Source: an uncultured Dehalococcoidia bacterium
GTDB taxonomy: Bacteria > Chloroflexota > Dehalococcoidia > Dehalococcoidales > UBA1222
Length of the DNA: 64,000 nucleotides
Direction: 5' to 3'
Assembly (NCBI GenBank): GCA_903844845.1
Contig: CAIMVG010000020.1
Span: 62,001 to 126,000 of the forward strand
Part shown: in pieces, positions 6,759-56,615 of the stretch
Layout of the letters: each line of letters begins with the position of its first letter
How positions within the stretch are numbered: the first letter of the stretch is position 1
The notes under the pieces: generated by a model
What the model was told of the DNA's origin: nothing
Databases searched by the model: none
The model's input: only the letters and a program-made list of their open reading frames with translations
Translations under genes and position numbers: made by a program

Positions 6759-6781
6759 TCAAAATGCGGAAATCCGCCGTC

Positions 6782-6809: not shown

Positions 6810-6850
6810 CTAGGGGCTATCGGAATAACGCTGTTTTTGAGGAGATTTTC

Positions 6851-7060: not shown

Positions 7061-7083
7061 ACGGGCAATACTCCTGAAAGCCA

Positions 7084-7119: not shown

Positions 7120-7132
7120 TTGCGTGCCTCAA

Positions 7133-9775: not shown

Positions 9776-9783
9776 AGCTTTCC

Positions 9784-11334
9784 CTAAATGACCAGTTTAT
9801 TCTGCGGGGCGGGTTTGTATTTGGCTCTTTCCGCCTCGTCGAGGTAATCCATGTTCACAAGCAGGTCGCTGCGGCCGACCAGTTCCCTGGTGCTTCGCAG
9901 GCCGTACTGTCTGAGTATCTCGCACCACTGCTTGCGCCAGGCCGTGTACATGTTAACGATACGCTGTTCGGCATATTCTTCGCTGATCATGCGGCCCAAT
10001 TCCGCGTCCGTCGATGCGATGCCGCGCGCGCAACCGCGCCCGCTCTCGCACTTGCCGCAGCGTATGCAGTCCAGCGCCACCAGGTCTGCCGTGCCGATAA
10101 CGACTCCGTCAGCCCCGAGAGCGATGGCCTTGGCGGCGTCAACGGCGTTCCTGATGCCCCCTGACGCGATGAGGCACACTTTCTCCCGTACGCCCTCGGC
10201 TTTGAGAAAGCGATGGATGCGCGGGATGGCGTATTCGATGGGCATCGCGATATTCTTCTTTGCGATATCCGGCGCGGCGCCGGTGCCCCCGTAGCTGCCG
10301 TCGAAATGTATGATATGGGCACCCGCGTAATAGCTGCCGACCGCCACCATGTCGGCATCGCTCGGAGTGGACACCTTGATTGAAAGCAACGCCCGTGGGT
10401 TTATCTCTTTTATCCAGTCCAGATGTTTTTTGTGGTCCTCAACGGAATATACGCTGTGGAAAGGGAACGGAGAGAACAGCGAACTGCCGACCACCGTCTC
10501 GCGCATGGCCGCGACTTCAGGGGTCACTTTATCGCCGAGCAGGTGCCCGCCGAGCCCGGGCTTGGCGCCCTGCGCGTATTTGAATTCCACGACCGGGGCG
10601 TTTTGAATGGTTTCTTCGCGCACGCCGAAAAGGCCCGTGGCTACCTGAGTGATGACATGCTCGGCGTAAGGCAGGAATTCGGGCGGGTAGCCCCCTTCCC
10701 CTGTGCAGGTCATCGTATTAAGCCGTTTGGCCGCCCTGGCCCGTCCCACGATAACGTTAAGGGCTGTCGATCCGAAAGACATGCCCCCGCCGTAGCAGGG
10801 CAAAGACAGCGTTTTCTGTGGCCTCTCGTCGCCCCTGCGGTTCAGGTCGAGGCTGGTATCGATAACTTCGTCGCTGATCTTTATATATTCGGAAGGCACA
10901 GGTGTCCGAAAACGCATCTTGTCGAAACCGCCTCCTGATGAACCGAGGCTGTATTCAAGGTCAACTTCCGGCAGGTTCCCCGTCTCTGCCATATGCCAGT
11001 GGGCAATCAGCATCTCAGGGGTCCAGCGGTAATCGCCCATGGTCTCAAGGGTCGAATTAAAGCTGACGCTGAGGGCTTTGTTCGGGCAGCGGGCGACGCA
11101 GTAATATTCGCATTTCTCGCAAGCGGTGCCGACACATCGTTCCGAGCGCGGTGGAAGGGGTTTTGCATAGCCTTCCGGCTTGATGTGGACCCCGTGCGGG
11201 CAGAGGCTGGCGCACAGGCCGCATCCGGTGCAGCGCGAATTGCGTGTGACGACAAATTTGCCTATGGGGTTTCTGAAGCGCGAAGGTGTCTCTACGGCTT
11301 CGGGCAGTGCTTTTTCAGGTTGGACCGTATTCAT
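9784..11334 (-). CDS. FMN-binding glutamate-synthase-family protein with N-terminal ferredoxin domain
   Basis: A 516-residue homologue of the GltB synthase domain. Residues ~27-90 carry two Fe-S motifs: C35-x2-C38-x2-C41-x3-C45-P, then a C-rich CEKCEYYCVARCP segment. The TIM barrel follows, with YGGGMSFGSTALN, CTGEGGYPPEF, the flavin/substrate segment GAKPGLGGHLLGDKV, SIKVST, FDGSYGGTGAAP and ASGGIRNAVD. A last cysteine group (CIRCGKCESGRGC) corresponds to the 3Fe-4S site. The start ATG 11334 (MNTVQPEKAL) lies just after the preceding stop. Catalytic residues look intact, so this is the probable active synthase subunit partnering the GATase-GXGXG protein. Archaeal-type split glutamate synthases are the closest known arrangement. 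Confidence 0.88.
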   Translation of the reverse strand: MNTVQPEKALPEAVETPSRFRNPIGKFVVTRNSRCTGCGLCASLCPHGVHIKPEGYAKPLPPRSERCVGTACEKCEYYCVARCPNKALSVSFNSTLETMGDYRWTPEMLIAHWHMAETGNLPEVDLEYSLGSSGGGFDKMRFRTPVPSEYIKISDEVIDTSLDLNRRGDERPQKTLSLPCYGGGMSFGSTALNVIVGRARAAKRLNTMTCTGEGGYPPEFLPYAEHVITQVATGLFGVREETIQNAPVVEFKYAQGAKPGLGGHLLGDKVTPEVAAMRETVVGSSLFSPFPFHSVYSVEDHKKHLDWIKEINPRALLSIKVSTPSDADMVAVGSYYAGAHIIHFDGSYGGTGAAPDIAKKNIAMPIEYAIPRIHRFLKAEGVREKVCLIASGGIRNAVDAAKAIALGADGVVIGTADLVALDCIRCGKCESGRGCARGIASTDAELGRMISEEYAEQRIVNMYTAWRKQWCEILRQYGLRSTRELVGRSDLLVNMDYLDEAERAKYKPAPQNKLVI

Positions 11335-11338
11335 AATT

Positions 11339-12745
11339 CTACTCGCAGGGAACTGTTCGCCGTCCGAAGATGGGGGCAAAACTCTCGCGTTCAAGATCTT
11401 CGAGGAAAAGGGCGCGCCCCACTTCGCCGCGCAGGCGCCGTACTTCGCGGATGCCGCAGGCACCCATGACTTCAAGAAGCTGGTTGTGCCAGGCGCCTAT
11501 AAGATTGACGATGCGCTGGCTGCCCCAGGCGGTTTCGATTTCTCCTATGGCGACAGGGCAGGAACCGCCGGTCTTGCAGAGTCCGCAAAGCCTGCATTCC
11601 AGTGCAACCAGCAGGGGGATGTCGATGACCACGCCGTCAGCGCCGCAGATGATGGACTTGGCCATGTGTTCGGCCATCGCGATCCCGCCGGAGAAAACCA
11701 GGTTAACCGTCGAGCGGAGTTTGCTGTCGATAAGCTTCTTGTGGACCTCGCGGATGAGGTCGCGCAACGGCCTGGGTGAACCTGAACCGATCTCGCGCCC
11801 GTTGTCATCGGCGTAAAAATGGATGGTATCGACACCTGCGATCGTCAACTCGAGCGCCCTCGAGGGGGCTTTTGAGTCAAGCGGCAAACCGACAGCGATG
11901 AGCAGTCCGGGTTTGAATCCGCGCAGGCGGGGGAATTCGTCTTCCACCCCGGGCGCGTCTGCGATTTCCAACATTTTACTGAGACATATTATGTCAACGT
12001 ATTCTTTGTAATCCCGGGCCGTCACCCTCGGTACCATCGTGCCATCGAAACAGTAAAATGCGGACGAATAATCCTTGGCGTCGATAAGCATCAGTGTCTG
12101 CAGCCTCTGGGCTGCAGATGCCATGGCTACGACTTCTTTTTCACTGAAAACCCCGAAAGAAGGCGGCTGAAAGAGTACGGGGATCGGTATCTCGGTTATT
12201 TCAGGCAGGGATTTGGGAAGCGAACCTTTATCATCGAAAGTCAATCTCATCGGCTTCCGTGAAAGCTCGATCGAGGTGCTGATGTACTCGCGCCCGTGGA
12301 TGCCGTCACGGGTGGGCCGCACGATCTCGGACATATCCGTCCACATCGCGTCGAATCCTGAGCCTGAGAACACACCCCTGTACCCGGCACCCGAAACCGG
12401 GATACGTCCGGTGTGAGCCTGAAACCATGTCTGGTTGATTATCTCGGGTTGCCAGTATTCGTCACCCATCAAGATATAGTCAGGGTTGACCACGCGGCTG
12501 AAGATGCCTTTGGTACATTCCTGCACGCATCGGAAACAACTCTGGCAGAGATAAAGAAATTCCGGTTCGTCCATCGTGATGACATGCTGGTAGCTGTCCT
12601 TGAAGACGTTATAAACGCATTTCTTTTTGACACACTTACTGCAGCTTCCCGCGCAGTCTTCGCGGCGTTCCACGGTAGAAAATTTACCTACCGCGGGAAA
12701 ACGCGGTGCGGTTACTTTGGTTTCGATATGATATTTCTTCGGCAT
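11339..12745 (-). CDS. Second, divergent FMN/glutamate-synthase-like Fe-S protein
   Basis: A 468-residue paralogue of the next gene. Eight N-terminal cysteines form two cluster motifs (C31, C35, C38, C43 and C67, C70, C73, C77). The C-terminal half keeps the barrel end (FSGGIAMAEHMAKSIICGADG) and a cysteine group CRLCGLCKTGGSC. The middle has diverged: the GEGG and GGTGAAP substrate/FMN motifs of the partner are missing, replaced by FQPPSFGVFSEKEV and HFYADDNGREIGSG. It is therefore probably an electron-transfer or structural partner rather than a second synthase. It is 7 bp from metF and 4 bp from its paralogue, so co-translation is expected. Confidence 0.8.
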   Translation of the reverse strand: MPKKYHIETKVTAPRFPAVGKFSTVERREDCAGSCSKCVKKKCVYNVFKDSYQHVITMDEPEFLYLCQSCFRCVQECTKGIFSRVVNPDYILMGDEYWQPEIINQTWFQAHTGRIPVSGAGYRGVFSGSGFDAMWTDMSEIVRPTRDGIHGREYISTSIELSRKPMRLTFDDKGSLPKSLPEITEIPIPVLFQPPSFGVFSEKEVVAMASAAQRLQTLMLIDAKDYSSAFYCFDGTMVPRVTARDYKEYVDIICLSKMLEIADAPGVEDEFPRLRGFKPGLLIAVGLPLDSKAPSRALELTIAGVDTIHFYADDNGREIGSGSPRPLRDLIREVHKKLIDSKLRSTVNLVFSGGIAMAEHMAKSIICGADGVVIDIPLLVALECRLCGLCKTGGSCPVAIGEIETAWGSQRIVNLIGAWHNQLLEVMGACGIREVRRLRGEVGRALFLEDLERESFAPIFGRRTVPCE

Positions 12746-41352: not shown

Positions 41353-42078
41353 ATGGCAGACCTAGAAGAACAAGAAAAATTCATGGAGAAAAAAGTAGAG
41401 GGATCCGGATTATCCAGAAGAGAATTCCTGCGAAACGCCGGTTTCGTAGTCGGCGGGGCTTCCCTGGGTTCGTTGGCATTTTTAAACGCCTGCAGCTCGG
41501 GATCCACAAGCACGGTAACTGAAACAAAAACGGTTACTGCCGGCGCCGGCACCACCGTAACGGTGACCGCACCCGCTGTAACCGTAACCGGAACCGGGAC
41601 CACTAGTACCGCCCCGGCCAACCTGGTTAACCTCAACGTCAATGGTATTGATTATTGGGGAGTTGTCTCTCCTGAATGGACCCTGGCTTATGTGCTCAGA
41701 GAGAAACTCGGCCTCATCGCCACCAAGCGCGGCTGCGACTGGGGCGACTGCGGCGTATGCGTCGTACTGATGGACAGCCGCCCGGTGATGTCCTGCGTCG
41801 TACTGGCCCTGGAAGCCAGCGGCAAAAAGATTGAAACGCTGGAAGGGCTGGCTCCCAAAATCGGCGCCACACTCGACCCGCTGCAGCAGGCGTTCATCAA
41901 TAACGATGCCATGCAGTGCGGTTTCTGCACCGCCGGTCAAATCATGACGGCCAAGGCCCTGCTGGCATTTAAACCCTCTCCCACCGTGGCCGAGATCAAA
42001 GAGTTCCTGGCAGGAACCATCTGCCGCTGCGGTGCCTACATGGGCATCATCGCTGCTGTCAAGTCTCAGGCCAAGTAA
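41353..42078 (+). CDS. Exported [2Fe-2S] subunit of a molybdenum hydroxylase (Tat lipoprotein)
   Basis: 241 residues. Residues ~20-47 form a Tat signal (SRREFLRNAGFVVGG) ending in a lipobox LNACSSG; a Thr/Val-rich linker follows (to ~95). The mature part is the xanthine-oxidase-family ferredoxin subunit: plant-type cluster CDWGDCGVCVV with a later C, and the all-helical second cluster domain with QCGFCTAGQIM and GTICRCGAY. Four conserved motifs are intact. The start ATG has GGAGG upstream. It passes electrons from the Mo site; the partner on the outer face is unknown. It heads a three-gene operon. Confidence 0.93.
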   Translation: MADLEEQEKFMEKKVEGSGLSRREFLRNAGFVVGGASLGSLAFLNACSSGSTSTVTETKTVTAGAGTTVTVTAPAVTVTGTGTTSTAPANLVNLNVNGIDYWGVVSPEWTLAYVLREKLGLIATKRGCDWGDCGVCVVLMDSRPVMSCVVLALEASGKKIETLEGLAPKIGATLDPLQQAFINNDAMQCGFCTAGQIMTAKALLAFKPSPTVAEIKEFLAGTICRCGAYMGIIAAVKSQAK

Positions 42079-42095: not shown

Positions 42096-44507
42096 GTGTA
42101 CGAATCATTTAATATCATAGATCCCGTCACGAAGGAAAATTACCCGCAATCGATCTACCACAACGTCAAGAACCTGCAATGGGTCGCCAATCCCAAAATC
42201 CTGCGCCAGGGTGCAGGAGCCAGGGTCATGGGGAACGAGATTTATTCCAACGACATCCTCATGACCAATCTGGTCTACCTCAAGCTTAAGAGGGCCCCGT
42301 ATTCTCACGCCACCGTCACCAGCATCGACGTCACCAAGGCCAAGGCCCTTCCCGGCGTCATCGGCGTCCTGACTTATAACGATGTGCCTAACCTGATCAA
42401 CGCCGCGCCGTACTTCTATTGCATCTCCAAGGATGTCTGGAACTCTACCGAATGCGTAGCTGCCGTGGTAGCTACCGAAGAGGACATCGCGGAGCAGGCC
42501 CTCGCCCTGATAGACGTGAAGTACACGGTCCTGCCTTTCGTGCTTCATCAGGATGATGCCCTCAAAGCCGGAGCATACATCCTTCATGGTTCCACCAACG
42601 AAGTCGGCACCGCCGCCCCGATCAACCGCGGCGACGTGAATGCCGCCTTCGCCAAGTCGGACAACGTCATCAACCTTGACTGGAGGAACGTAACCAAGCC
42701 ATTCTTCGGCGTACACCCGGTGGCCTCGGTCGAGCAGGAATCCTTCACCTGCAACTGGGAGAACGAACGCATGAGCGTCTGGAGTTCCACCCAGTCTCCC
42801 TGGGGCTCCCTCAGGAGCGTAGCCGCCGCCCTCAACCTGCCCTACAGTAAGGTCGCGGCCCTCAACTGCCGCATGGGCACAGGCTTCGGCAACAAGGGCT
42901 CGGACGGCGCCGGCGTGAAGATCGCCGCTTACTTCTCATATACACTGCATCGCCCGGTCAAGTGGTACCAGGACATGGACGGCCACTTCGGGATGAACAG
43001 CAGCGCCTGGACCTGCCAGAACCACGTCATGAAGATGGGCGTCAACAAGGACGGCACCATCACCGCCATGTCCGACGTCTGCCAGGGCAACGGCGGCTAC
43101 CGCGGCAACGCCGCGGCCCAGAGCGGTATCGCGCCTTTCGCCGTGCGCATCAAGACCGCCAACATGTACCTCGAAGGTCACGACGCCTACACCTGCTCCC
43201 AGGGCGCCGGCATCCCGCGCTGCGTACAGCATGTTCAGGGATCCGTAGCTTTCAGCGTCCTGATGGACATGGCCGCAGAATCCATCGCCATGGATCCGGC
43301 CGACTTCCTGGTCAAGAACACCTACGACAAGGCAGGCGTGGGTGCACAGCCGGAATTCCCGACCTATGACGTCGGCTGCAATTCCGCCCCCGGTTACATC
43401 AACGATCTGATCGCCTTATCCGGCTGGAAGAGCAAGTGGAAGGGCTGGAAGACCCCGACAGCCGTTAACGGCCCCAAGAAGAGCGGTATCGGCATCTCCG
43501 TCCATAACTGCAGCCACGGCTCGCTGTCGAACCCCGAATCGGCCACTATCATGCTGGAACCGGATGGCTCCTGCCGCTGCGTCACCGGCTCCCAGGACAT
43601 GGGACAGGGCTGGAGGACCGCCGCCGCCATCATGACCGCCGAGGAGATGGGCATCGACTACAGTCTGGTCACTTCGCCCAACTTCGCCACCGAGAACACA
43701 CAGGAAAGCCGCTCCCCCGGCGGCAGCACCGTTACCCGCGGCACCGGCACGGCCGTCATCCTGGCCTGCCGCGACGCCAAGGAGCAGCTCTTCAAACTGG
43801 CTATCATAGCCAAGAAGTTCACGGGCGTCACCCCCGACCAACTCGAAACCGCCTATGGCTACATCTATCAGAAGTCAGGGGCCGCGCCCACCTCGTGGAC
43901 GCCCGGCACCGCTCCCGCCGGCTCGGTCTGGGTCAAGATCGCCGACGTCTGCGCCCTGATGACCGCCACCGCCTTCACCGCCCCCGCAGTCGGCACCTAC
44001 ACCTACGGCGGCCCCATCATCGGCCGCGGTTCCTATGCCACCGGCAGGAACGGCAACATGATGCAATTGCAGCAGTCCGGCACCACCGCTGAGGTGGAAG
44101 TCGACACCAACACCGGCGAGGTGGAAGTCAAGAACATCGTAGAGATATGCGCCTGCGGCAGGAACATCTTCTACCAGGGCAACTTCAACCAGATCGTGGG
44201 CGGCATCGCCTTCATGATCGGTCACGCCCTGTATTCCGGCCTGGCGAAAGACGAGGCCACCGGTCTAGACCTCAACCCCAACTACACCCTGTTCAAGTGC
44301 CCGACCTCGGCCGACATGCCCACGATGAGCGTCGGCTTCAACGAGACGCTGGAGCCCTACGGTCCGTTCGGCGGCAAGGGCACGGGCGAACCCGTCATGC
44401 CTTCCGCTTCATCCAGCATCTTTAATGCCATCTACAACGCCTGCGGAGTCAGGTCTAAACAAGCCCACATGACCCCGGATGTGATTCTAGCCGGGTTGGG
44501 CAAGTAA
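42096..44507 (+). CDS. Molybdopterin-binding catalytic subunit, xanthine dehydrogenase / aldehyde oxidase family
   Basis: 803 residues from GTG 42096 with GAGGAGG upstream. The aldehyde-oxidase a/b-hammerhead domain (~35-150; GNEIYSNDILMTNLVYLKLK) is followed by the molybdopterin-binding domain with GTGFGNKGSDGAG, QGAGIPRCVQHVQGS, GSQDMGQGWRTAAA, ESRSPGGSTVTRGTG and the catalytic glutamate in GGKGTGEPVMP. No signal peptide, so it is presumably co-exported with the Tat-bearing small subunit. The active-site Phe/Arg pattern of xanthine enzymes is not obvious, so the substrate is open; the partner FAD subunit points to a 4-hydroxybenzoyl-CoA-reductase-like relative. Codons end very often in C, unlike the flanking genes. 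Confidence 0.93.
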   Translation: MYESFNIIDPVTKENYPQSIYHNVKNLQWVANPKILRQGAGARVMGNEIYSNDILMTNLVYLKLKRAPYSHATVTSIDVTKAKALPGVIGVLTYNDVPNLINAAPYFYCISKDVWNSTECVAAVVATEEDIAEQALALIDVKYTVLPFVLHQDDALKAGAYILHGSTNEVGTAAPINRGDVNAAFAKSDNVINLDWRNVTKPFFGVHPVASVEQESFTCNWENERMSVWSSTQSPWGSLRSVAAALNLPYSKVAALNCRMGTGFGNKGSDGAGVKIAAYFSYTLHRPVKWYQDMDGHFGMNSSAWTCQNHVMKMGVNKDGTITAMSDVCQGNGGYRGNAAAQSGIAPFAVRIKTANMYLEGHDAYTCSQGAGIPRCVQHVQGSVAFSVLMDMAAESIAMDPADFLVKNTYDKAGVGAQPEFPTYDVGCNSAPGYINDLIALSGWKSKWKGWKTPTAVNGPKKSGIGISVHNCSHGSLSNPESATIMLEPDGSCRCVTGSQDMGQGWRTAAAIMTAEEMGIDYSLVTSPNFATENTQESRSPGGSTVTRGTGTAVILACRDAKEQLFKLAIIAKKFTGVTPDQLETAYGYIYQKSGAAPTSWTPGTAPAGSVWVKIADVCALMTATAFTAPAVGTYTYGGPIIGRGSYATGRNGNMMQLQQSGTTAEVEVDTNTGEVEVKNIVEICACGRNIFYQGNFNQIVGGIAFMIGHALYSGLAKDEATGLDLNPNYTLFKCPTSADMPTMSVGFNETLEPYGPFGGKGTGEPVMPSASSSIFNAIYNACGVRSKQAHMTPDVILAGLGK

Positions 44508-44519: not shown

Positions 44520-45488
44520 ATGAAAACTTTTACGCACATCAACGCCACCAGCATCGCTGACGCCGGGGCCAAGTTGACCCAGTACGGCAGCAGCGCCAAA
44601 CTGATCGCCGGGGGCACCGACTTGATCCGCCTGCTCAAGACCCGCTGCCTGCCAGATGCCTCCCTGCCCCAATACATCATCAACCTCAAGACCATCACGC
44701 CGACCCTCGACTATATCAAAGTCGATGGAACCACCCTCAAGATCGGGGCCCTGACCAGGCTGCATGACATCGCCTTCTCGACGACGGTGCTGGGCAGCTG
44801 GAGTTCGCTGTCCCAGGCAGCCAGAGTGGTCAGCAGTTGGCCTATCCGCCAGATGGGCACCATCGGCGGCAACATCTGCTGCCAGAAGCAGTGCTGGTAC
44901 TACCGCTCCACTTGGAACAAATTCCAGTGCGTGCTCAACGGCGGAACCGGATGCCCCGCTGTTGCCGGGAACCACAGGTATGAATCCGTCTTCGGCCCCA
45001 CCAACGGATGCTACTCCGTGAATCCCAACGACATTTCCCCTGTACTGCTCGCCCTGAGCGCCACCATCGTGACCAACAAGGGCAGCTATACCGCCGATAA
45101 GTTCTTCGATGGGTTCAAGATAACGAACCTGGGCGCAGGAGAATTCGTCACCGAGATCGACATCCCAACCCCCGCCGCTGGAAGCAAACAGGCTTTCGTC
45201 AAGGCTTCCGAGAGAAGGGCTGTCGACTTCGCTTCCGCCAACTGCGCGATACTGGTTACACCGGGCACCGGAACCATCACCGCAGCCAGGATAGTACTGG
45301 GCGCGGTAGCAACTGTGCCCTACCTGTCCGCTGAAGCCGCCACTGCACTGATCGGGAAATCCATATCGGCCGATACCGCCGCCGCTGCCGGGGCGGCAGC
45401 AGTCTCCAAGGCCTCTCCCATCAGCGCGCTGAACAAATACAAGGTTGCTATGGCCAGCGGCCTGGTCCAGAGAGCTCTGCTAAGCTAG
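44520..45488 (+). CDS. FAD-binding subunit with 4Fe-4S-type insertion, molybdenum hydroxylase
   Basis: 322 residues of the CoxM/HcrB type. FAD motifs AKLIAGGTDLIRLLK and RQMGTIGGNICC are present, then a cysteine-rich insertion (CCQKQCWYYRST, KFQCVLNGGTGCPA) that corresponds to the [4Fe-4S] loop of the 4-hydroxybenzoyl-CoA reductase beta subunit, which ordinary xanthine or CO dehydrogenases lack. C-terminal CO-dehydrogenase-flavoprotein domain RRAVDFASANCAIL. No signal peptide. It ends 21 bp before a GC-rich hairpin. Confidence 0.92.
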   Translation: MKTFTHINATSIADAGAKLTQYGSSAKLIAGGTDLIRLLKTRCLPDASLPQYIINLKTITPTLDYIKVDGTTLKIGALTRLHDIAFSTTVLGSWSSLSQAARVVSSWPIRQMGTIGGNICCQKQCWYYRSTWNKFQCVLNGGTGCPAVAGNHRYESVFGPTNGCYSVNPNDISPVLLALSATIVTNKGSYTADKFFDGFKITNLGAGEFVTEIDIPTPAAGSKQAFVKASERRAVDFASANCAILVTPGTGTITAARIVLGAVATVPYLSAEAATALIGKSISADTAAAAGAAAVSKASPISALNKYKVAMASGLVQRALLS

Positions 45489-46293: not shown

Positions 46294-46314
46294 ATTTGTT
46301 AGGGGGTGGATGAT

Positions 46315-46911
46315 ATGATGCGTCGAATCTTCAGTTTATCTGCCAGGAATATGGTGTTCTTCAGCCTTGTCGGGATATTGGTTCTCACGGCCTTCATCAA
46401 GGTGCCCTGTCCCGTGTGCGACGGCACGGGCTCGGTATCCACCTCGGTCAACATGGACCGCGTTTTTTTCAGCAACATGGATACACGCCTTATGTTTCTT
46501 AACCCCGACTTCTGCATCGGTTATACCCTGTACGAATACGAAGTTAATGTAACACTCACCAATGATGCCAGCGAAGACGCCACGGGATGGATTTCGTTGC
46601 AGCTCAAAGCATATTCGACAGGCAAAGTCCTCGACACCGCCTATATGGGGGTAGCGATCCCCGGCAAATCGACTGCCATCAATTCATTTACTGTATGGTT
46701 CAAGACAGCTTATGATTCAACCACCGACGTTTTCATCGAGCCTGCCGTCAACCAGGCGGCCGTCGAGTGTCTTACCTGCTCGGGTTCAGGGGAAACCCCC
46801 CTGAACGTATGGCTGGTCGCCAAGGGCATGAAAGCCAAATTGGCCCAGATTACCAAGGTCGAACGCACGTTCGAACCGCCCCCGGTAATATTTTTCCCTC
46901 CCGGCGAGTGA
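46315..46911 (+). CDS. Membrane-anchored protein with two DnaJ-like CxxCxGxG motifs
   Basis: 198 residues from ATG 46315 (GGGGGTGG upstream). One N-terminal hydrophobic segment (MVFFSLVGILVLTAFI) is followed at once by CPVCDGTGS, then a beta-rich domain (NVTLTNDASEDATGWISLQL, KSTAINSFTVWF) that looks like a FxLYD/LEA-type Ig-like fold, then CLTCSGSGE and a proline-rich end. The two half zinc-finger motifs, separated by about 115 residues, could jointly bind zinc. Family not recognised beyond this. Confidence 0.72.
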   Translation: MMRRIFSLSARNMVFFSLVGILVLTAFIKVPCPVCDGTGSVSTSVNMDRVFFSNMDTRLMFLNPDFCIGYTLYEYEVNVTLTNDASEDATGWISLQLKAYSTGKVLDTAYMGVAIPGKSTAINSFTVWFKTAYDSTTDVFIEPAVNQAAVECLTCSGSGETPLNVWLVAKGMKAKLAQITKVERTFEPPPVIFFPPGE

Positions 46912-48344: not shown

Positions 48345-49145
48345 ATGAGAAAAGGGAGTTCATATTTCATCTTGACGGCGCTGATGATCGCAGTCATGGT
48401 GGTTGCATCGTGCGGTGGGGGGACGAAGACCACTTCCAGCACCACGACGACGCCCGGAACCACCACGCCGTCAAGCTCGACGACCAGCAGCGCTACCACC
48501 GGTACCACCTCCGGCACTACCACCAGCACCAAGAGCAACACTACTACCTCCAGTTCAGGAGGTGCCTTGCCCACGACCGCTATAGCAATCTCCACGCACA
48601 CCGATGCGGTACTGGCAAGCTATAAAGGCTTGTGCTTGATGTGTCACGGAGCTGGGATGTCGAACCAGTTCCCGATGTCCCCGTCGTGGGACGGCAAGAA
48701 GAACGGTTCGACGGAAAATACCGGCGTTTATACCATCACCGCCGGCTCACCCGCTGACCATACCGGGCGCACCGCAGACTCCTGCACGACCCAGTCAGGG
48801 TGCCACACTACCGGAGTTGCTGTCGTGATGAAGACGATATATGTAACCACGCCCGGTACCTCGCTTCCTCCCAAGGGGACCACCGTGGCATTCCAGGATC
48901 CTAAACCCGGTGTTAACCCACCTACCAATGTGCCGCACGCCATCACCGGCGCTTATGAGAACTGCATCACCTGCCACATGGGCGACAACGCCGCAGGTAG
49001 CCAGTTCGTAGTCTCCACCGACCATTGGTGCGAGGAATGCCACCATACGACTCCTGAACCCAGTTTCGACCCCGGGCATAACGGTTCCGGGTTCCCGACC
49101 CTACCGGCGCAGCAATCATGCATCATCTGCCATAAAGGTACGTAA
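48345..49145 (+). CDS. Multihaem c-type cytochrome lipoprotein
   Basis: 266 residues. Signal peptide with lipobox VVASC (Cys23), a Ser/Thr-rich linker to ~75, then haem motifs CLMCH (97-101), CITCH, CEECH and CIICH, plus a C-x5-CH variant CTTQSGCH. Five haem sites are therefore possible. The linker should hold the haem domain away from the membrane. AAGGAGG precedes the ATG. A CcdA-like gene lies 6.4 kb downstream in the same strand block, consistent with cytochrome c maturation. Role: electron transfer on the outer face; partner not shown. Confidence 0.88.
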   Translation: MRKGSSYFILTALMIAVMVVASCGGGTKTTSSTTTTPGTTTPSSSTTSSATTGTTSGTTTSTKSNTTTSSSGGALPTTAIAISTHTDAVLASYKGLCLMCHGAGMSNQFPMSPSWDGKKNGSTENTGVYTITAGSPADHTGRTADSCTTQSGCHTTGVAVVMKTIYVTTPGTSLPPKGTTVAFQDPKPGVNPPTNVPHAITGAYENCITCHMGDNAAGSQFVVSTDHWCEECHHTTPEPSFDPGHNGSGFPTLPAQQSCIICHKGT

Positions 49146-49280: not shown

Positions 49281-50561
49281 ATGAGTAATAGCTGGCAGGT
49301 CAAATATGACGAGCTAATGGGTTTTATGTCTAAAAACCCATCTATCGTGATCAAGCCTGACGTCCTTTCCATACCCGGCGATGTCAGGACTGACTTCTAC
49401 GCGCTGTTCGACGGCATACGGGAAAATTACATCAGGGACAATTATTCTGCTCCTCTGGAAAAAGCCATCGACCTGAGCAGCAGCCATGAACGCATTAAAA
49501 ATGAGCTGTTAGCCAAACTGTCTCTTGAAGAACTGGAGATAAGGTCCACTATCCGGGGGTTCATCAGCGACCCTGTGGCTAATTCGGTAAAACTCCTTTT
49601 CGACCCGCTCTTCGACCTGCTGATGGGGAAAATAGGACTTGCCGCTTTCGAAGAAGTATCGAACACCAAATTGAAAATGTCCTTCGACACTTTTTTCCAG
49701 CACGCCAATCAGAGCTGGGTGATGCTCTCGCTGCTGAAACTTTTAGACCCGGATGAGGTCTACGTAGTGCCGCCGCCTCTCAATGAACTCGCCAATGAAT
49801 TCGACTCGGTCATCAACGACTCGGGCGGCATGACCAAGCAGATGCCCCCCGATGCGATCCAATCCAACAGGATTTCTTTTAACACTGCTACCTTCGCTTC
49901 TTTTATGTTCCCCAAGGTCATCGTGCATTCCAAACTGTTGAACCTGTTCGTTTCCATCGCGTCGGATTTCCGCAACGTACCGATACGGGTTGTATATTTG
50001 AATAAAAATGTGGATTGGCTGCCCTTGATGGGCGTGTATCAAACAGTGGGCAATACAAAAATATGGCCCGATATCGCAATATATATGGCAAATCAGCCCA
50101 ATGACCTGGTTTTAGTCTCAGACAACCAGTACATCGCCGTACCAGACATCATCATGAGCATCGAAGGTGAAACCAGGCTGCGTGAAACTTCTACCCGTGA
50201 AATCCTGAATAAGCAAGACCAGGCTTTCAAAGCCCGGGTAGGGAATTTCGTGATCTCCCCCGACATGATTCAAGACGCGGACCTGGCCGATTTGACACAG
50301 CAGCTTAAACCGCGTGGCGCGAATATTGAAGCCCCGGCTGAACCGGCGGAAACATCATCTGCCAACAAAGCGGCCAGTGCCCCCGCCGAAAAACCGCCCG
50401 ATATTGCTCCACAAAGGGGGATCGATATTTTGAGCGTCGGTTATGATGAGACAAAGTTGGGACCGATATTTGAGGCCATCCTCCATTCAGAACATTATTC
50501 CCAGTTGGTCCCGCCTCCGGCTGCGCCGGCGGAACAGGGTGTTGAAAAAAACGGGAATTAG
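49281..50561 (+). CDS. Uncharacterised 426-residue protein
   Basis: No recognised family. GGAGAACG precedes ATG 49281. Residues ~1-320 look like a globular alpha/beta domain (YDELMGFMSKNPSIVIKPDV, FDPLFDLLMGKIGLAAFEEV, WVMLSLLKLLDPDEVYVVPP, IPIRVVYLNKNV-like RVVYLNKNVDWLPLMGVY). Residues ~330-380 are a Pro/Ala/Glu linker (APAEPAETSSANKAASAPAE), and ~380-426 a short tail. No signal peptide or membrane segment. It lies at the head of the block that leads to the activase/dehydratase genes, so a regulatory or scaffold role there is conceivable. Confidence 0.75.
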   Translation: MSNSWQVKYDELMGFMSKNPSIVIKPDVLSIPGDVRTDFYALFDGIRENYIRDNYSAPLEKAIDLSSSHERIKNELLAKLSLEELEIRSTIRGFISDPVANSVKLLFDPLFDLLMGKIGLAAFEEVSNTKLKMSFDTFFQHANQSWVMLSLLKLLDPDEVYVVPPPLNELANEFDSVINDSGGMTKQMPPDAIQSNRISFNTATFASFMFPKVIVHSKLLNLFVSIASDFRNVPIRVVYLNKNVDWLPLMGVYQTVGNTKIWPDIAIYMANQPNDLVLVSDNQYIAVPDIIMSIEGETRLRETSTREILNKQDQAFKARVGNFVISPDMIQDADLADLTQQLKPRGANIEAPAEPAETSSANKAASAPAEKPPDIAPQRGIDILSVGYDETKLGPIFEAILHSEHYSQLVPPPAAPAEQGVEKNGN

Positions 50562-50586
50562 TCTTTCGGGGTCAATTTTAAGACTG

Positions 50587-51108
50587 ATGCAAATGCGGAC
50601 TACAGTTAAAGTGATCAGGGGGATAGGCATCTTCTTGCTATGCGTCTCAACGATACTGGGCAGTACTTTCCTGTCTGGCTGCGGAAATAGCCAGACACAA
50701 GATACCCTGAAAACTGACCAGTCGCAGAATATCTACCAGGTCATGGAGCCAGCCCAAGCCAACGGGCAATCAGTAACGAATTTTGTTCGAGTCCTGTCAA
50801 CAGGCGATGAGGTCAGCGGTAGTATCAATTTATCCGGTGAGTGGGAGGTCCCGGGGGATTCGCGTACCCCTTGGACTTATCAGGCATGGGACTCGGCGGG
50901 AGGCATGATAGACAGCGCGACCATCAGGTTCATGCCTTTTGATAACGAAAATCCCTATCATTATTTCAATTTTGTCGCCGCGATTCCCGGACAATATATC
51001 ATCCGTATAATCCACTACAGCCTGATGGTTCAATACTTGAGTATTGAGATTTCTCCGCCGGGGTGGCTGAACGCAGGGCAATCAGTTTTCAAATCCGTCA
51101 CGGGGTAA
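50587..51108 (+). CDS. Putative small lipoprotein
   Basis: 173 residues from ATG 50587 (a second in-frame ATG is at 50593; no strong Shine-Dalgarno). N-terminal signal with GIGIFLLCVSTILGS and lipobox FLSGCGNSQ. The mature part is beta-rich (VRVLSTGDEVSGSINLSGEW, AAIPGQYIIRIIHYSLMVQY), resembling emp24/jelly-roll-like carbohydrate- or membrane-associated domains. Function unknown. It precedes the activase gene by 38 bp. Confidence 0.7.
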   Translation: MQMRTTVKVIRGIGIFLLCVSTILGSTFLSGCGNSQTQDTLKTDQSQNIYQVMEPAQANGQSVTNFVRVLSTGDEVSGSINLSGEWEVPGDSRTPWTYQAWDSAGGMIDSATIRFMPFDNENPYHYFNFVAAIPGQYIIRIIHYSLMVQYLSIEISPPGWLNAGQSVFKSVTG

Positions 51109-51146
51109 ATAGTTAAAAACAATCCAAATAAGGAGACTGACTCAGG

Positions 51147-51950
51147 ATGATTGTAGTAGGGGTTGACATCGGCAGCACCACTGCCAAGGCGGTGGTTTTA
51201 AACGAAAGCGCGACCATTTGGAGCGCTATCATTCCATCGGGAAATAGTCCCCCGTCCGCCGGCAAGGAGGTGTTCGCCCTGGCTGTCAAAAACAGCCAGC
51301 ATACGATGGAAGAGGTTTCCTACGTTATCGCCACCGGTTACGGGAGGGTTTCAGCCGAGTTCGCTAATAAAACGGTTACCGAGATATCGTGTCACGGCCG
51401 CGGGGCTAACTACCTCAACCCGGCCACCAGGACGATCATCGATATCGGCGGGCAAGACTCTAAAGCGATTAGTCTGGATGAACACGGCAAGGTCATCGAC
51501 TTCATGATAAACGACAAATGCGCATCCGGCACCGGCAGGTTTCTCGAGACCGCTGCCGAGTTGGTGCTGCGCGTAAAACTCCAGGACCTGGGTACTCTCT
51601 CTGCCAAGGCGACCGATACGCCCAACATCTCCAGTGCCTGCACCGTCTTCGCCCAGACCGAAATGGTAAGCCTGCTGGCAACCGGTGTACCTGTCGAAAA
51701 CCTGGTCGCCGGGCTCCACAGGGCCGTTGCAGCCAGAGTATCCAGCATGGTAAAAAGGATCGGCATCAAGCCCACCGTGATGATGACGGGAGGCGTCGCC
51801 AAAAACAGCGGTGTGATTGCCGCGTTCCGGAAAGAACTCAACATCGACGTCGTGGTGCCGACAAATATGGACCCCCAACTGGTGGGCGCCCTCGGGGCGG
51901 CCCTGATAGCCCAGGAGATGGCGAAAAATGGCGGGACCGGCCGTGTTTGA
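51147..51950 (+). CDS. 2-hydroxyacyl-CoA dehydratase / benzoyl-CoA reductase-type activase (BadF/HgdC family)
   Basis: ASKHA-fold ATPase that drives single electrons at very low potential into a partner enzyme. 267 residues: phosphate loop GVDIGSTTAKAVV, DIGGQDSKAI, the two cluster ligands in NDKCASGTGRFLE and ISSACTVFAQTEMV (one Cys per monomer motif pair, bridging a dimer), and TGGVAKNSGV. AAGGAGA precedes the ATG. It overlaps the following dehydratase-like gene by 23 nt, so the complex is co-translated. Confidence 0.93.
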   Translation: MIVVGVDIGSTTAKAVVLNESATIWSAIIPSGNSPPSAGKEVFALAVKNSQHTMEEVSYVIATGYGRVSAEFANKTVTEISCHGRGANYLNPATRTIIDIGGQDSKAISLDEHGKVIDFMINDKCASGTGRFLETAAELVLRVKLQDLGTLSAKATDTPNISSACTVFAQTEMVSLLATGVPVENLVAGLHRAVAARVSSMVKRIGIKPTVMMTGGVAKNSGVIAAFRKELNIDVVVPTNMDPQLVGALGAALIAQEMAKNGGTGRV

Positions 51951-53133
51951 TACCGCGAACCCCACAGCCGGTTTGCTGGACCACCTGGATGAGAGGCTGG
52001 CCAAAGAGCTTGCGTTGATAGCTGAGGCCAAGCAAAAAGGCCAGAAGGTTATCGGCTATTTCTGCCCATACCTGCCGGAAGAACTGATATTAGCGGGCGG
52101 CATGCTCCCGGTGCGTCTGGCTTTCGGCGGCGAGTTAGAATCTTCAGTCGCCGGTGAAGAATATCTGAAAGCCTACAGTTGCCCCGTTTCGCGTTCCTGC
52201 GTCGGGTATCAGGTCACCGGCACTAACGAATACTATAACCTGGTGGACGCCTTTTGCGTCACTCAAACCTGCGAAAACATCAAGCACGTCCAGGAGTATC
52301 TTGAAAAGCGCTTTACCAAACCCGTATTCAGGCTCGGGTTGCCCCGCACCTGCGATTCAACGCGTTCACGCCCGCAATCCATCGAATATTTCAAGGGAGA
52401 ATTGCAGTCGCTGCGGGCTAAACTCGGCGAATTCGGCGGGCGCCCCATCAGAGACCTGGACATACGCCGGGCTATCACTCTGTGCAATAACATCCGGGAG
52501 AAATTGCGCTTTATCTATGAATACCCGGACCAAAGGCACACCTTGCTCGATTGGTATGACAGTTTTAAGATAACGCAGGCCGGTTTCCTGATGAACAGGA
52601 AGGACTATCTTAAAGAGCTCGAACTGATCGAGCGGTCAATCATCGGGCGCAAGCCGCCGGTCGAGGCCGATGGAAAGGTACGCATGTTGCTGATGGGCAG
52701 CATGCTCGGAATCGGAGACCATAAGATACCTGACCTGATCAAGGAAACCGGCGGTAAAATTGTCACTGACAACACCTGTACCGGAATATCCAATTCCCGC
52801 AAAAACGTCACAGTGTTCGGGATTATCGGAGACACCATGGAAGCGCTGGCAGAAAGATATCTTTATAATGTGCCCTGCCCGTGTATGACCGACCTCGACC
52901 GGAGGCTAAAACGCACTTCGATGATAATCCAGGACTACGCGGTAGAGGGAGTAATTTATTACAACCTCAAGTACTGCGATAACTGGCGCACCGAATACCC
53001 GATTTTCAAAGATTACCTGCAAAAAGAACTGAAGATGCCCATCCTCTTGATTGAGTCTGACTATTCGCCTTCCGACGTTGGGACCATACGAACCAAAATA
53101 GAAGCGTTTATAGAAATGATACGAGGTATATAG
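51928..53133 (+). CDS. 2-hydroxyacyl-CoA dehydratase D-component family protein, Fe-S subunit
   Basis: 401 residues of the HgdB/BcrC/FldB family. Conserved cluster-ligand regions are present: GYFCPYLPEELILAGGMLPV, SCPVSRSCVGYQ, FCVTQTCENIKHV, and NLKYCDNW near the C-terminus. AGGAG lies before ATG 51928, inside the activase gene. With the activase it receives ATP-driven electrons for reductive or dehydrating chemistry. Members include hydroxyglutaryl-CoA dehydratase, benzoyl-CoA reductase and double-cubane-cluster proteins; the substrate cannot be told from sequence here. Confidence 0.9.
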   Translation: MAGPAVFDTANPTAGLLDHLDERLAKELALIAEAKQKGQKVIGYFCPYLPEELILAGGMLPVRLAFGGELESSVAGEEYLKAYSCPVSRSCVGYQVTGTNEYYNLVDAFCVTQTCENIKHVQEYLEKRFTKPVFRLGLPRTCDSTRSRPQSIEYFKGELQSLRAKLGEFGGRPIRDLDIRRAITLCNNIREKLRFIYEYPDQRHTLLDWYDSFKITQAGFLMNRKDYLKELELIERSIIGRKPPVEADGKVRMLLMGSMLGIGDHKIPDLIKETGGKIVTDNTCTGISNSRKNVTVFGIIGDTMEALAERYLYNVPCPCMTDLDRRLKRTSMIIQDYAVEGVIYYNLKYCDNWRTEYPIFKDYLQKELKMPILLIESDYSPSDVGTIRTKIEAFIEMIRGI

Positions 53134-53135
53134 CC

Positions 53136-54350
53136 ATGCAACTCGAGATCGCCGCCGGGATCGCCGATCTGCGCTTCGACAGGGGGCTGCAGACCTTTCC
53201 TGAGATTTTGTCCGCTTACCTGGATTTTAATCCGAAAGTCGCACAACCCGAAAAAAAAGTGGTTGCCAACGGGCCGCTTTCGCCGGCAGATATCATTTAT
53301 GCGGCAGGTGCGCTTCCCTACGACTTCAGCACCCACCAGAACTTGCAGGCCATTTTCAGCGGCAATAATAGCCTTAGCCAGCAGGCTGTTGACATGCTGG
53401 TAAGCAGTGAGTTCAACCCCTGGTACCAGGTGATGCTCGGGGCTTTTTTGTACGACCAGAACCAGATTCCGATCGATTTATTTTCCACGTCGATAGGGGA
53501 GTTCGACGATCAGCTAACCAAGAGTTTTCAGCTGATGGCCCGGGCCCGCTCCAGGGCTTTTATTGATTGGGAAGTTCCCAGGCATGATGCGCCGTCGGAA
53601 GCTCTAGCGCTGGACTTTTTGAAAAAAGAGATCAAGCAATTCATCCTCGAGATAAGCGCCCATACAGGGCATAATACCGGCGACCATGACCTCAGCAGGG
53701 CCGTACACGCCGGCAACCTGTTGCGCGGCGACATGGCCGAGATAGATAAATTGCTGGCGGCGAAGGTGGTCCCGCTGTCCGGCCTTGAATATTATCTGCT
53801 CCAGGTGATGCTCGGTGATTTCGCGAGGAATCCGGACGGGCTGCACAGCCAGTTTAGTCTCCTGATAGACGAATTGAACGGCAGGGTGGAAAACCATGAA
53901 TCGGCCCCCGGCATACGCACTTCACCGGTCAGGGTATACATCATGGGAGACGAAACCCAGGAGCTTCATCTATACAACTCGATCGAGGACGCCGGCGGGG
54001 TTCTGGTGGGATGCGACTTCAGGATGCCGCTCTATTACGGACTGGTTAATGAAACGGAGAAACCGGTTGACAGCCTCGCCAGATGGGTATGGAACATGCC
54101 GAACAACCTGCCTCTCCAGGAACGCATCGAATTCGAGTTACTGCGCATTAAAATGCAAAAACCGGACGCGGTCATCCTCAGCAACGTAGTAGGGTCAAGG
54201 CATTTGACCGGAATCGAGAGACTGGTAAAGGATGCACTCAAAGACAAACTGGGGATCCCTGTGCTTTCCATAGAGACCACATTGCCTAAAGAAAATGTCG
54301 ATAAGATCGATTATCAGATAAACGCTTTAATGCAGATGATTGGTGGTTGA
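53136..54350 (+). CDS. Cysteine-depleted partner of the dehydratase-like protein
   Basis: 404 residues with the same fold as the preceding gene: ADIIYAAGALPYDFS corresponds to EELILAGGMLPVRL, then PVRVYIMGDE, VGCDFRMPLYYG and LKDKLGIPVLSIETTLP. The cluster cysteines are gone. Only one Cys (in VGCDF) remains in 404 residues, and the usual YxCxYxPEE position reads VVANGPLSPADI. It therefore cannot bind a 4Fe-4S cluster in the normal way and is probably a structural or substrate-binding subunit of a heterodimer with the 401-residue protein. It begins 2 bp after that gene. Confidence 0.85.
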   Translation: MQLEIAAGIADLRFDRGLQTFPEILSAYLDFNPKVAQPEKKVVANGPLSPADIIYAAGALPYDFSTHQNLQAIFSGNNSLSQQAVDMLVSSEFNPWYQVMLGAFLYDQNQIPIDLFSTSIGEFDDQLTKSFQLMARARSRAFIDWEVPRHDAPSEALALDFLKKEIKQFILEISAHTGHNTGDHDLSRAVHAGNLLRGDMAEIDKLLAAKVVPLSGLEYYLLQVMLGDFARNPDGLHSQFSLLIDELNGRVENHESAPGIRTSPVRVYIMGDETQELHLYNSIEDAGGVLVGCDFRMPLYYGLVNETEKPVDSLARWVWNMPNNLPLQERIEFELLRIKMQKPDAVILSNVVGSRHLTGIERLVKDALKDKLGIPVLSIETTLPKENVDKIDYQINALMQMIGG

Positions 54351-54370
54351 AGCTGAGCCGAGGAGTGGAT

Positions 54371-55516
54371 ATGTTATCACGTTTCAGGTCAAAAATACTG
54401 GCTTTATTATTAACCCTCCCAGTGGCGGGCTTTGCCCTATGGTGGTACAGCCATCCGCTGCCCTGGTTCGGCGTGTTAATGGCTTTAATCAGCGGAAGCT
54501 TCACTTTTCTCATTATCAATGCCAAGCGCAAGATGAGCCTGCAGCGCCCTCTATTTATCGGGTTATTCGGCGTTTTTTTGGGGACGATCCTATCGGTGGT
54601 TTACGTAGACAACAACACGGCGGCCTTTCTGGATTGGGCCCACCGCCATACCATCGCGTACTATCGCATCGGCGAAACGGTCCGCAGCACGGTTTTCCCC
54701 TGCACACTTACGCTGTCGCAGGTCTTTCTAGGCCGGGCGGCAAATTATTTCCCATCGACGGGATCATGGCTGGTGAGCTTCCCGTCCTCGCTGCACGCAT
54801 TCCTTTTGATACTGATCCCTTTCACCGTGACGACACTGCTATTCGGCCGAAGCATCTGCGGCTGGATTTGCCCTTTCGGGGGATTGCCCGAAGCCATGGT
54901 GACCGGAAACAAGACCAGATGGTCGCTGAATTTCCTTAAAAAGAAATCGGTGGTGGAGGATAAAAAGGAAATCGAGGGTCTCCAGGACTGGGTGAAGGAC
55001 GTCAAGTACGGAGTGCTGTTAGCCTCGCTGCTGCTGGCTGTCTCCCTCGCATTCCCGGCGGTCTGCCTGCTGTGCCCGGTATTTTGGCTCTCCTCCCTTC
55101 CTGTCTTCTGGGTGATAATCGGATTAATGGTAGTCTTCGCCCTGATTTTGCCCTTCATGACCAAGAAACGATGGTGGTGTCAGATCTGCCCGCTGGGAGC
55201 CCTGTTCGCCATGATCGACAAGATCAGCATCTTCCGGGTACATATGGACAAGAAAAAATGCGATAGATGCATGGACTGCGTCTATGAATGTCGCATGTAC
55301 GCCTTGACACCGGAGGGGCTGGACAAGGATCTAAAACCGGATGAAGACTGCATCAGATGCGGGCGCTGCATCGAGGTTTGCCCGGAAAAAGCGGCCGACC
55401 TGTATTTCTTCAACACGTCCGTGAAAGCCAGGAACATTTTTATATCCCTTACCATGGTCGCCATACTAGCCTGGTATACCTGGTTCATATTCATCCTGCT
55501 GGGTAAATTTGGCTAA
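54371..55516 (+). CDS. Membrane polyferredoxin (NapH/NosR-like 4Fe-4S protein)
   Basis: 381 residues from ATG 54371 (GAGGAGTGG upstream). Several transmembrane segments; CxxxCP motifs GRSICGWICPFGGLPEAM, VCLLCPVFW and WWCQICPLGALFAM in the membrane part. Two classical 4Fe-4S motifs are at the C-terminal cytosolic side, CDRCMDCVYECRM and CIRCGRCIEVCPEKA. A last hydrophobic segment ends the protein. Such proteins move electrons between quinol or flavin and periplasmic or cytosolic carriers. Its place next to the activase system suggests that it feeds or drains it. Confidence 0.9.
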   Translation: MLSRFRSKILALLLTLPVAGFALWWYSHPLPWFGVLMALISGSFTFLIINAKRKMSLQRPLFIGLFGVFLGTILSVVYVDNNTAAFLDWAHRHTIAYYRIGETVRSTVFPCTLTLSQVFLGRAANYFPSTGSWLVSFPSSLHAFLLILIPFTVTTLLFGRSICGWICPFGGLPEAMVTGNKTRWSLNFLKKKSVVEDKKEIEGLQDWVKDVKYGVLLASLLLAVSLAFPAVCLLCPVFWLSSLPVFWVIIGLMVVFALILPFMTKKRWWCQICPLGALFAMIDKISIFRVHMDKKKCDRCMDCVYECRMYALTPEGLDKDLKPDEDCIRCGRCIEVCPEKAADLYFFNTSVKARNIFISLTMVAILAWYTWFIFILLGKFG

Positions 55517-55528
55517 ACCCGGGGCAAG

Positions 55529-56173
55529 ATGCTTAGTGTAATCCTGGCTGCACTGGCGATGGGAGTTGGCACCATCCTGTCGTGCGCGGCTTTATGTGTG
55601 CCGCTGGTGATGCCCTACGCGGCAACGGCCGATAGGCCCGGTTTTCTTTCGGGAGCGGCTCCGGGGCTGGCATTCTCAACAGGCCGCCTTGTAAGTTATG
55701 TAGTCTTGATGCTGGCCCTGTTTTTTCTCAAATCTACCATCCAGGAAAATTTCCTGACCATCGCCATCGTCAATGTCACTTCGGGCCTGGTCGCGATATT
55801 AAGCGGATTATTTATCCTGGGCGCCTTCAAACGTTACCCCGCGTTTAACAAACATTACTGCTTAATGTTCAATGGTACACGTTCTCCGTTCGTGCTGGGG
55901 CTCCTGGCAGGCATCACTCCCTGCGCACCCCTTTTCGCAGCCCTGGCGTTTATCATGACGCTTGATAGCCTGTTTACAATGAGCCTGTTCATGATCTGTT
56001 TCTGGCTGGCCTCTACCCTGTTGATCATCGCACTATCTTCCATGGGCGGTGTCCTGGCCTCGCTGTTAAGCCGAAGAGTCGGGCTTGAAAGGGTGAGACG
56101 CATAGCCAGCATCGCGATAATTGTAATCGGACTGGTTCTGCTGATCAGGGGATTAAGCGGTTTTCAGGTGTGA
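55529..56173 (+). CDS. CcdA/DsbD-like membrane thiol-electron transporter
   Basis: 214 residues, six hydrophobic segments, with the two paired cysteine helices of this family: TILSCAALCVPLVMPYA and GITPCAPLFAALAFI. CcdA-type proteins carry reducing equivalents across the membrane for cytochrome c haem attachment or disulfide reduction. 12 bp after the polyferredoxin gene. It may serve the multihaem lipoprotein encoded at 48345. A TauE/SafE-type exporter is the alternative reading. Confidence 0.83.
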   Translation: MLSVILAALAMGVGTILSCAALCVPLVMPYAATADRPGFLSGAAPGLAFSTGRLVSYVVLMLALFFLKSTIQENFLTIAIVNVTSGLVAILSGLFILGAFKRYPAFNKHYCLMFNGTRSPFVLGLLAGITPCAPLFAALAFIMTLDSLFTMSLFMICFWLASTLLIIALSSMGGVLASLLSRRVGLERVRRIASIAIIVIGLVLLIRGLSGFQV

Positions 56174-56243
56174 CCTGGCCCCGCCCATTCCTGTTCATGG
56201 GCGAAAAACATTAGCGCAAATTAGATTTTGAGGGAACCTGAAT

Positions 56244-56615
56244 ATGACCGAATACCCTACTACCTGGCAGCAATACCGTCTACCCGACGGGCGGGAATTT
56301 GCCATAGCCGTTTGCGGTTTCAGCGGCCGGGTCAGGCACCTTACCATCGACCACGACATCATGCGGCAAACCTGCATACGCTGCAATATGATCAATGACG
56401 GAAAGTGCAGTTCTGCAACACATTGCCTGGCATTGGAATGCCCGCTCAACCACAGTGAGCATGAGCAGCTGATGCATATGCTCGACATGTGGACCGACGA
56501 GCCTGCGGATGAAGATTCGGTCAAGCAACTCGGGGAAAAAACGGTTGTCGGTTGCCTGGTTGAGATGGCGCGCCGCATAAGTGATTCCCTGGCGGCGGAC
56601 GCTACAAAAAAATAA
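56244..56615 (+). CDS. Small cysteine-rich uncharacterised protein
   Basis: 123 residues, no signal peptide. A cysteine-rich centre, TCIRCNMINDGKC, then HCLALECPLNH, could bind zinc or an Fe-S cluster. The rest (LPDGREFAIAVCGFSGRVRH, EKTVVGCLVEMARRI) is not recognised. It follows the CcdA-like gene by 70 bp on the same strand and is probably the end of this block. Confidence 0.7.
   Translation: MTEYPTTWQQYRLPDGREFAIAVCGFSGRVRHLTIDHDIMRQTCIRCNMINDGKCSSATHCLALECPLNHSEHEQLMHMLDMWTDEPADEDSVKQLGEKTVVGCLVEMARRISDSLAADATKK

Follow-up and report, generated by a model that had tools for sequence, protein, structure and literature searches.

A predicted double-cubane reductase with a cluster-free partner subunit, encoded near molybdenum-hydroxylase genes in an uncultured Dehalococcoidia bacterium

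The superfamily that unites benzoyl-CoA reductases (BCR), 2-hydroxyacyl-CoA dehydratases (HAD) and the double-cubane cluster protein (DCCP) has been described as a series of cluster combinations: a double-cubane cluster (DCC) in both halves (DCC/DCC, DCCP), a double cubane next to a [4Fe-4S] cluster (DCC/4Fe, benzoyl-CoA reductase) and two [4Fe-4S] clusters (4Fe/4Fe, dehydratase). New functions within the series are explained by the loss of sub-clusters, six cysteines bind the double cubane of both BzdN and DCCP, and DCCP, whose function is stated to be unknown, reduces small molecules (PMC11971306). Here we describe a locus of this superfamily in a stretch of 64,000 nt (the window; contig CAIMVG010000020.1, positions 62,001-126,000, forward strand, assembly GCA_903844845.1) from an uncultured Dehalococcoidia bacterium (Chloroflexota; Dehalococcoidales; UBA1222), whose genome is 97.9% complete. 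Its core set (51147-56173) encodes an activase, two HGD-D proteins that we call alpha and beta, a NapH-like membrane polyferredoxin and a CcdA-like membrane protein. From sequence, the assignment to the reductases of the BCR/HAD/DCCP superfamily is well supported, and, judged by its ligand residues, the alpha-beta pair is a fourth combination in the superfamily, a cluster-asymmetric variant with a double cubane in one half and nothing in the other.

The predicted double cubane lies in alpha (51928-53133; Pfam HGD-D, 5.3e-83). We set the ligand columns by aligning alpha with DCCP (7yyl) and BzdN (8s02), and compared them over 89 family proteins as a signature of six columns, in the order C46, C85, C115, C284, C317 and C350 of alpha. 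All six [8Fe-9S] ligand cysteines are present in alpha, giving the signature CCCCCC, as in the DCCP and BzdN types of the set; in our alignment, the published [4Fe-4S] ligands of BzdO (C95, C128 and C380) fall on C85, C115 and C350. The closest solved structure to the alpha profile is DCCP (5.8e-50), and the best NCBIfam model is the double-cubane reductase NF040772, at 253.9 bits and under its curated cut-off of 350. In the tree, alpha forms a clade of its own (100/100), which groups with BzdN and HadC (100/95) and lies outside the DCCP clade. Apart from this locus, the same genome has a DCCP-type gene accompanied by an activase of its own (L044:8169-10207, contig C4; HGD-D, 5.6e-123), placed within the DCCP clade; here and below, L-numbers denote the DNA stretches compared (from relatives and from the genome itself), G-numbers genomes and f-numbers families.

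Beta (53136-54350; HGD-D, 1.7e-34) is the unusual half. The first-pass annotation of the window had called it free of cysteine, which is right for the ligands and wrong for the protein as a whole, given that it has one cysteine in 404 residues, at none of the six ligand columns. At the three columns of the catalytic [4Fe-4S] cluster it carries Asn, Glu and Ser, and other betas have at most one cysteine among these. The seven full-length copies that we compared all have Asn at the C85 column, Arg at C284 and Ser at C350; four of them have a cysteine at C115 and one has a further cysteine at C317, and no copy keeps a set able to hold a cluster. Among the 89 family proteins, where HadC types read xCCxxC and HadB/BzdO types TCCxxC, the beta clade is the only one with fewer than three ligand cysteines. 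Signals of its origin differ: the profile favours DCCP (1.4e-24, compared with 7e-4 for BzdN and about 0.02-0.03 for BzdO and HadB; 65 bits against NF040772, cut-off 350), whereas the tree, in which beta is monophyletic (100/100) on a long branch, places it beside the HadB/BzdO-type partners, at only 89/52. Its predicted model has low confidence (pLDDT 64) and matched only this superfamily below E 0.001. Beta thus reads, by its residues, as a true member of the HGD-D family without a cluster site. We infer that alpha and beta pair and that the cluster assembles in this arrangement. Such a DCC/none pair would extend the published series and would show whether a double cubane alone does substrate chemistry; what is new is an unusual cofactor arrangement within a known superfamily, now with a testable role.

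Each of the described relatives shares part of this arrangement. DCCP and its reductase DCCP-R from Carboxydothermus (6eno, 7yyl) have the same HGD-D fold, six cysteines for [8Fe-9S], a partner activase and no CoA pathway, and DCCP is the closest solved structure to the profiles of both alpha and beta; however, the two halves of the DCCP homodimer each hold a cluster, while here two unequal genes carry the ligands in one only, and NapH and CcdA are attached. The class I benzoyl-CoA reductase BzdNOPQ is a heterodimer, whose N subunit stores electrons on an [8Fe-9S] cluster with the six ligands shared by alpha, but BzdO has a catalytic three-Cys [4Fe-4S]-OH2 cluster where beta has none, and there are two different activase subunits instead of one. 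The (R)-2-hydroxyisocaproyl-CoA dehydratase HadBC, activated by HadI, also has two HGD-D subunits, but a three-Cys cluster is present in both HadB and HadC, and the CoA-transferase family of HadA is absent from the genome studied here. A more distant likeness is to the dark-operative protochlorophyllide reductase (DPOR), an ATP-driven donor with a two-subunit acceptor in which the substrate takes the place that a metal cofactor has in a relative; DPOR belongs to the nitrogenase family and is unrelated in sequence, so that the likeness would be one of mechanism.

The remaining core proteins fit an ATP-driven module at the membrane. The activase (51147-51950), an ASKHA ATPase, reaches 271.3 bits against a TIGR00241 cut-off of 125.4 (7.7e-81; BcrAD_BadFG, 1.5e-63) and is thus a member of that family; its closest structure is HadI (PDB 4eht, 1.5e-71), and in the alignment to 4eht it keeps both cysteines of the bridging [4Fe-4S] cluster (NDKCASGTG and SSACTVF). 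The window has a single activase gene, and so has every orthologous locus that is complete. The membrane polyferredoxin (54371-55516; Fer4_5 and a dicluster ferredoxin) scores 90.1 bits against a TIGR02163 cut-off of 213 (1.7e-25), and we call it NapH-like only, given that the motifs are present: the CX3CP and two 4Fe-4S motifs are conserved among orthologues. It has six hydrophobic segments, and its charged loops, by hydropathy only, suggest that the ferredoxin domain is probably cytosolic. A TTG start at 54347 is possible; the ATG at 54371 seems likelier, because orthologues begin at about that alignment column. The CcdA/DsbD_2-like protein (55529-56173; DsbD_2, 2.2e-17) has the SCxAxCxP and PCxPL motifs that its orthologues keep. 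In alpha and beta we saw neither a membrane helix nor a recognised signal.

All eight genes listed by the first-pass annotation, from a 426-residue protein to a cysteine-rich small protein, are present on the + strand where it had placed them, as a run with overlaps or short gaps: the activase gene runs 23 bp into alpha, gaps of 2, 12 and 70 bp separate alpha from beta, NapH from CcdA and CcdA from the last gene, and beta and NapH overlap by 4 bp from the TTG start or are separated by 20 bp from the ATG. No excess of promoters or terminators was seen inside the run. The order activase-alpha-beta-NapH-CcdA recurs in stretches L035, L038 and L039, which come from other families than the window and together with it represent families f1, f27 and f16; L006, L037 and L043, on shorter contigs, match it over the part that they cover, except that no CcdA follows NapH in L037. 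The run is therefore more than chance, and the idea of an ATP-driven low-potential module next to a membrane ferredoxin gains support from an order kept across Dehalococcoidales families. Our order-level census found beta in 8 of 156 Dehalococcoidales genomes, spread over five families. A scan of 84,980 species gave no close beta outside Dehalococcoidia records, with the caveat that its patterns were built from beta itself and could miss distant forms, and an even draw of 400 Chloroflexota gave none outside Dehalococcoidales. One match outside the order, in G268, was rejected as beta; it is the partner type that keeps its cysteines. The corresponding stretch of this other Chloroflexota genome (L164) has an activase, a subunit of the six-Cys type, three similar Cys-keeping partners and a flavoprotein, and represents an expanded reductase locus.

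Two types of alpha/beta locus can be told apart. The first has an activase, mostly a CcdA and an alpha with six cysteines. The second (L036, L040 and L042) has no adjacent activase, and its alpha-beta genes follow a YedE-like sulfur/selenium (S/Se) transporter split into two halves and a small CPVC-type membrane protein; these alphas have lost one or two ligands (CCYCCN, CCYCCN and GCCCCC). A gene for DUF3343, a Se/S carrier, lies 3' of NapH in L041, L042 and L153; in the last of these, from the genus of the window, NapH is accompanied by an alpha-like gene but beta is missing.

The wider neighbourhood is that of a molybdenum (Mo) hydroxylase. Genes on the same strand extend the run in the 5' direction as far as 41353, and the first of this longer series encode a TAT-exported hydroxylase of the xanthine-dehydrogenase type, comprising a 2Fe-2S subunit (41353-42078; Fer2_2), a molybdopterin subunit (42096-44507; MoCoBD_1/2) and an FAD subunit (44520-45488; FAD_binding_5/CO_deh_flav_C). 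In half of the ten loci (window, L038, L039, L040 and L042), alpha/beta has a Mo hydroxylase at a distance of no more than about 6 kb, and three of the other loci (L006, L037 and L043) are on short contigs. After the hydroxylase comes a small membrane protein with a CPVCDGTG motif (46306-46911; no family above its own cut-off), homologues of which are found both beside Mo hydroxylases and beside alpha/beta. The first gene of the run, P426 (426 residues; 49281-50561), matched no family in Pfam or NCBIfam and had been taken as part of the module. It belongs instead to a multi-copy family, present in 21 of the 156 genomes with up to six copies per genome, that adjoins Mo-hydroxylase triplets, or XdhC-YqeC-YqeB-MocA with molybdate-transporter-like genes, mostly without any dehydratase. 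Seven of the eight genomes with beta also have P426 (Fisher 2e-6, without correction for relatedness). Because its neighbours are Mo-hydroxylase, YqeB and YqeC genes, and YqeB and YqeC are markers of selenium-dependent Mo hydroxylases (PMC2276186), P426 is part of the Mo-hydroxylase system and not of the reductase. The cysteine-rich protein of 123 aa at the other end (56244-56615; no Pfam or NCBIfam family match) probably belongs there as well: a Mo-hydroxylase cluster in L152 has a homologue of 37% identity, flanked by P426 and a gene of the CPVC type. Of the proposed module, activase, alpha, beta, NapH and CcdA thus stand, and P426 and probably the cysteine-rich protein are better counted among the Mo-hydroxylase neighbours.

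Selenium genes extend this picture. The maturation of selenium-dependent Mo hydroxylases (SDMH) is associated with YqeB, YqeC, YgfJ, SelD, YedE, YedF and DUF3343, and C. difficile depends on YqeB for its selenium-dependent use of purines (PMC11448449). The genome studied here has SelD with an in-frame TGA (L158, contig C7), which suggests that selenocysteine is decoded in this genome and that SelD is one of its selenoproteins, as well as YqeB, YqeC and a YgfJ-type MocA (L145); L105, some 30 kb 3' of the module, encodes a YedE-like pair, YedF and two proteins of the DUF3343 type. The loci of the second type, flanked by YedE-like and DUF3343 genes, point the same way, but an HGD-D reductase is not an established part of SDMH maturation and the link here is drawn by gene neighbourhood alone. 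STRING links YedE, YedF and DUF3343 to an activase in Slackia, and YedF also to an HGD-D subunit (PMC5322559), and DCCP has been called provisionally linked to selenium metabolism (PMC10418091). The S/Se link of the reductase is thus an association, not proof; the neighbourhood makes a so far vague connection between double cubanes and selenium testable, in a lineage whose known genomes come mostly from uncultured organisms.

Given this context, we favour, with a probability of about 0.42, an ATP-gated reductase of a CoA-free, S/Se-linked compound that would serve the Mo-hydroxylase system. An activase dimer with one bridging [4Fe-4S] cluster would hydrolyse ATP and push single electrons, one per ATP step, into alpha, which would store them on its [8Fe-9S] double cubane. 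The empty pocket of beta (the region of Asn94, Arg296 and Ser354), which is filled by a cluster in all other subunit types of the comparison, would probably be the side of the substrate or of electron exit, by analogy with the cavity without metal cofactor in DPOR. NapH would supply or receive electrons on the cytosolic side and CcdA would relay thiol electrons across the membrane, perhaps to exported lipoyl lipoproteins; through these two proteins the reductase would be linked to the membrane and, likely, to thiol or lipoyl carriers that are exported. The set would work inside the Mo-hydroxylase and S/Se gene system, with a CoA-free, sulfur- or selenium-linked compound as the likeliest substrate; both substrate and electron direction are what we infer. 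In its fullest form, the proposal would be a new branch of the superfamily, a double-cubane reductase with a metal-free half acting on an S/Se species for exported, possibly selenium-dependent Mo hydroxylases and wired through NapH and CcdA to exported lipoyl lipoproteins. We regard this combination as doubtful; if true, it would give double-cubane chemistry a physiological role outside CoA esters. Several observations weigh against the S/Se-linked reductase. The alpha/beta loci of L035 and L036 have no Mo hydroxylase within the stretch compared, the activase-bearing locus of the window is some 30 kb from the nearest YedE/DUF3343 genes (those of L105), and it is the alphas with lost ligands and no adjacent activase that adjoin YedE-like genes. 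A soluble S/Se reductase would also not account for NapH, and the model is built on sequence and on the low-confidence fold of beta. As gene neighbourhoods are mosaic here, the Mo hydroxylase and the reductase may even be wholly separate systems.

Other uses of the same machinery have to be weighed against these points. The substrate could instead be a CoA-free organic compound of the Mo hydroxylase or of an adjacent aldehyde ferredoxin oxidoreductase (AOR), for example an N-heterocycle or an aromatic, with NapH as donor. The Mo hydroxylases near alpha/beta would agree with this, as would the small-molecule reductions of DCCP and the AOR with a TAT-signal ferredoxin directly 5' of the activase in two f16 genomes (L038:5346-7843 and L039:12662-15146); yet the Mo hydroxylase is exported and alpha and beta are not recognisably so, the conserved set has no transporter for such a compound, and AOR is absent from the genome of the window. 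We consider this explanation unlikely. The first-pass annotation had preferred an electron pump, in which the ATP-activated cluster of alpha would pass low-potential electrons by way of NapH and CcdA to an acceptor in the membrane or outside the cell; the exported Mo hydroxylase, cytochromes or lipoyl lipoproteins would be candidates. NapH and CcdA do stand within the conserved order, an exported cytochrome-like protein is encoded upstream, and a cluster-free beta need not be catalytic. Exported lipoyl lipoproteins with LipA/LipB lie beside the module in L035, L039 and L043, and the genome itself has six long GcvH copies, five with a TAT-type signal and the lipoyl Lys. However, known family members reduce a bound substrate, NapH-type proteins normally supply electrons rather than receive them, and export paid for with ATP needs an acceptor of very low potential, none of which was identified. 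We consider the pump unlikely; S/Se or Mo-hydroxylase chemistry agrees with the neighbourhood no less well than outward electron delivery does.

Far less probable is a standard enzyme of the superfamily, either an (R)-2-hydroxyacyl-CoA dehydratase or a class I benzoyl-CoA reductase, whose second subunit has diverged, even though the Pfam families are the same, an activase accompanies two HGD-D subunits and alpha groups with BzdN and HadC. The scores are far under the HAD and BCR equivalog cut-offs, and beta lacks the three-Cys [4Fe-4S] set that the compared HadB/BzdO-type partners retain. The genome, in which controls were detected, has neither a CaiB-type CoA-transferase (PF02515) nor an acyl-CoA dehydrogenase (PF00441), family I CoA-transferases (PF01144) not having been searched for. 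For these two families, this extends to the whole genome the earlier remark that the module has no CoA partners nearby, and the argument against fermentation of a hydroxy acid holds: we rejected CoA-ester fermentation because of the ligand loss in beta and the absence of PF02515 and PF00441. All further explanations taken together seem quite unlikely.

Beside the genes discussed so far, the series includes two lipoproteins. One (48345-49145) is the exported cytochrome-like protein mentioned above, recognised by sequence from its four CxxCH haem motifs (weak Cytochrome_C7 match, 0.006). The other, with an LSGC lipobox found by sequence (50593-51108), was previously given a start at 50443 and begins near 50587/50593. 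A genome of the same genus (G001) carries the same genes as far as this lipoprotein, and its contig (L138) ends 99 bp later, short of where reductase genes would follow; it has a CxxCH-type relative of the first lipoprotein at the same place and the one homologue of the second, directly after P426.

P426 itself has a core that is ordered, a linker that is disordered and, at the C-terminus, a conserved VGYD motif. Its model is confident (pLDDT 84.6); Foldseek gave no match below 0.001, and in VIA one family of type II restriction enzymes matched at Z of about 8, a weak PD-(D/E)XK likeness in which the usual catalytic Lys is not evident.

In L105, the region 6354-11822 has two DUF3343-type/Carb_kinase-like gene pairs, YedF, the YedE-like pair, GcvH and a dihydrolipoamide-dehydrogenase-like gene, and is a possible S/Se trafficking cluster. 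We found no paper on exported lipoylated GcvH or on the activase/NapH/CcdA set. GcvH-family proteins with a TAT-type signal and a lipobox, apparently exported lipoyl lipoproteins, are encoded in this genome at L101:7306-8946, L102:7988-8833, L103:7653-8471, L104:7658-8395 and L100:1498-2259 and in relatives at L035:1676-2380 and L039:6524-7309, and some of these genes adjoin LipA/LipB and DsbD-like genes.

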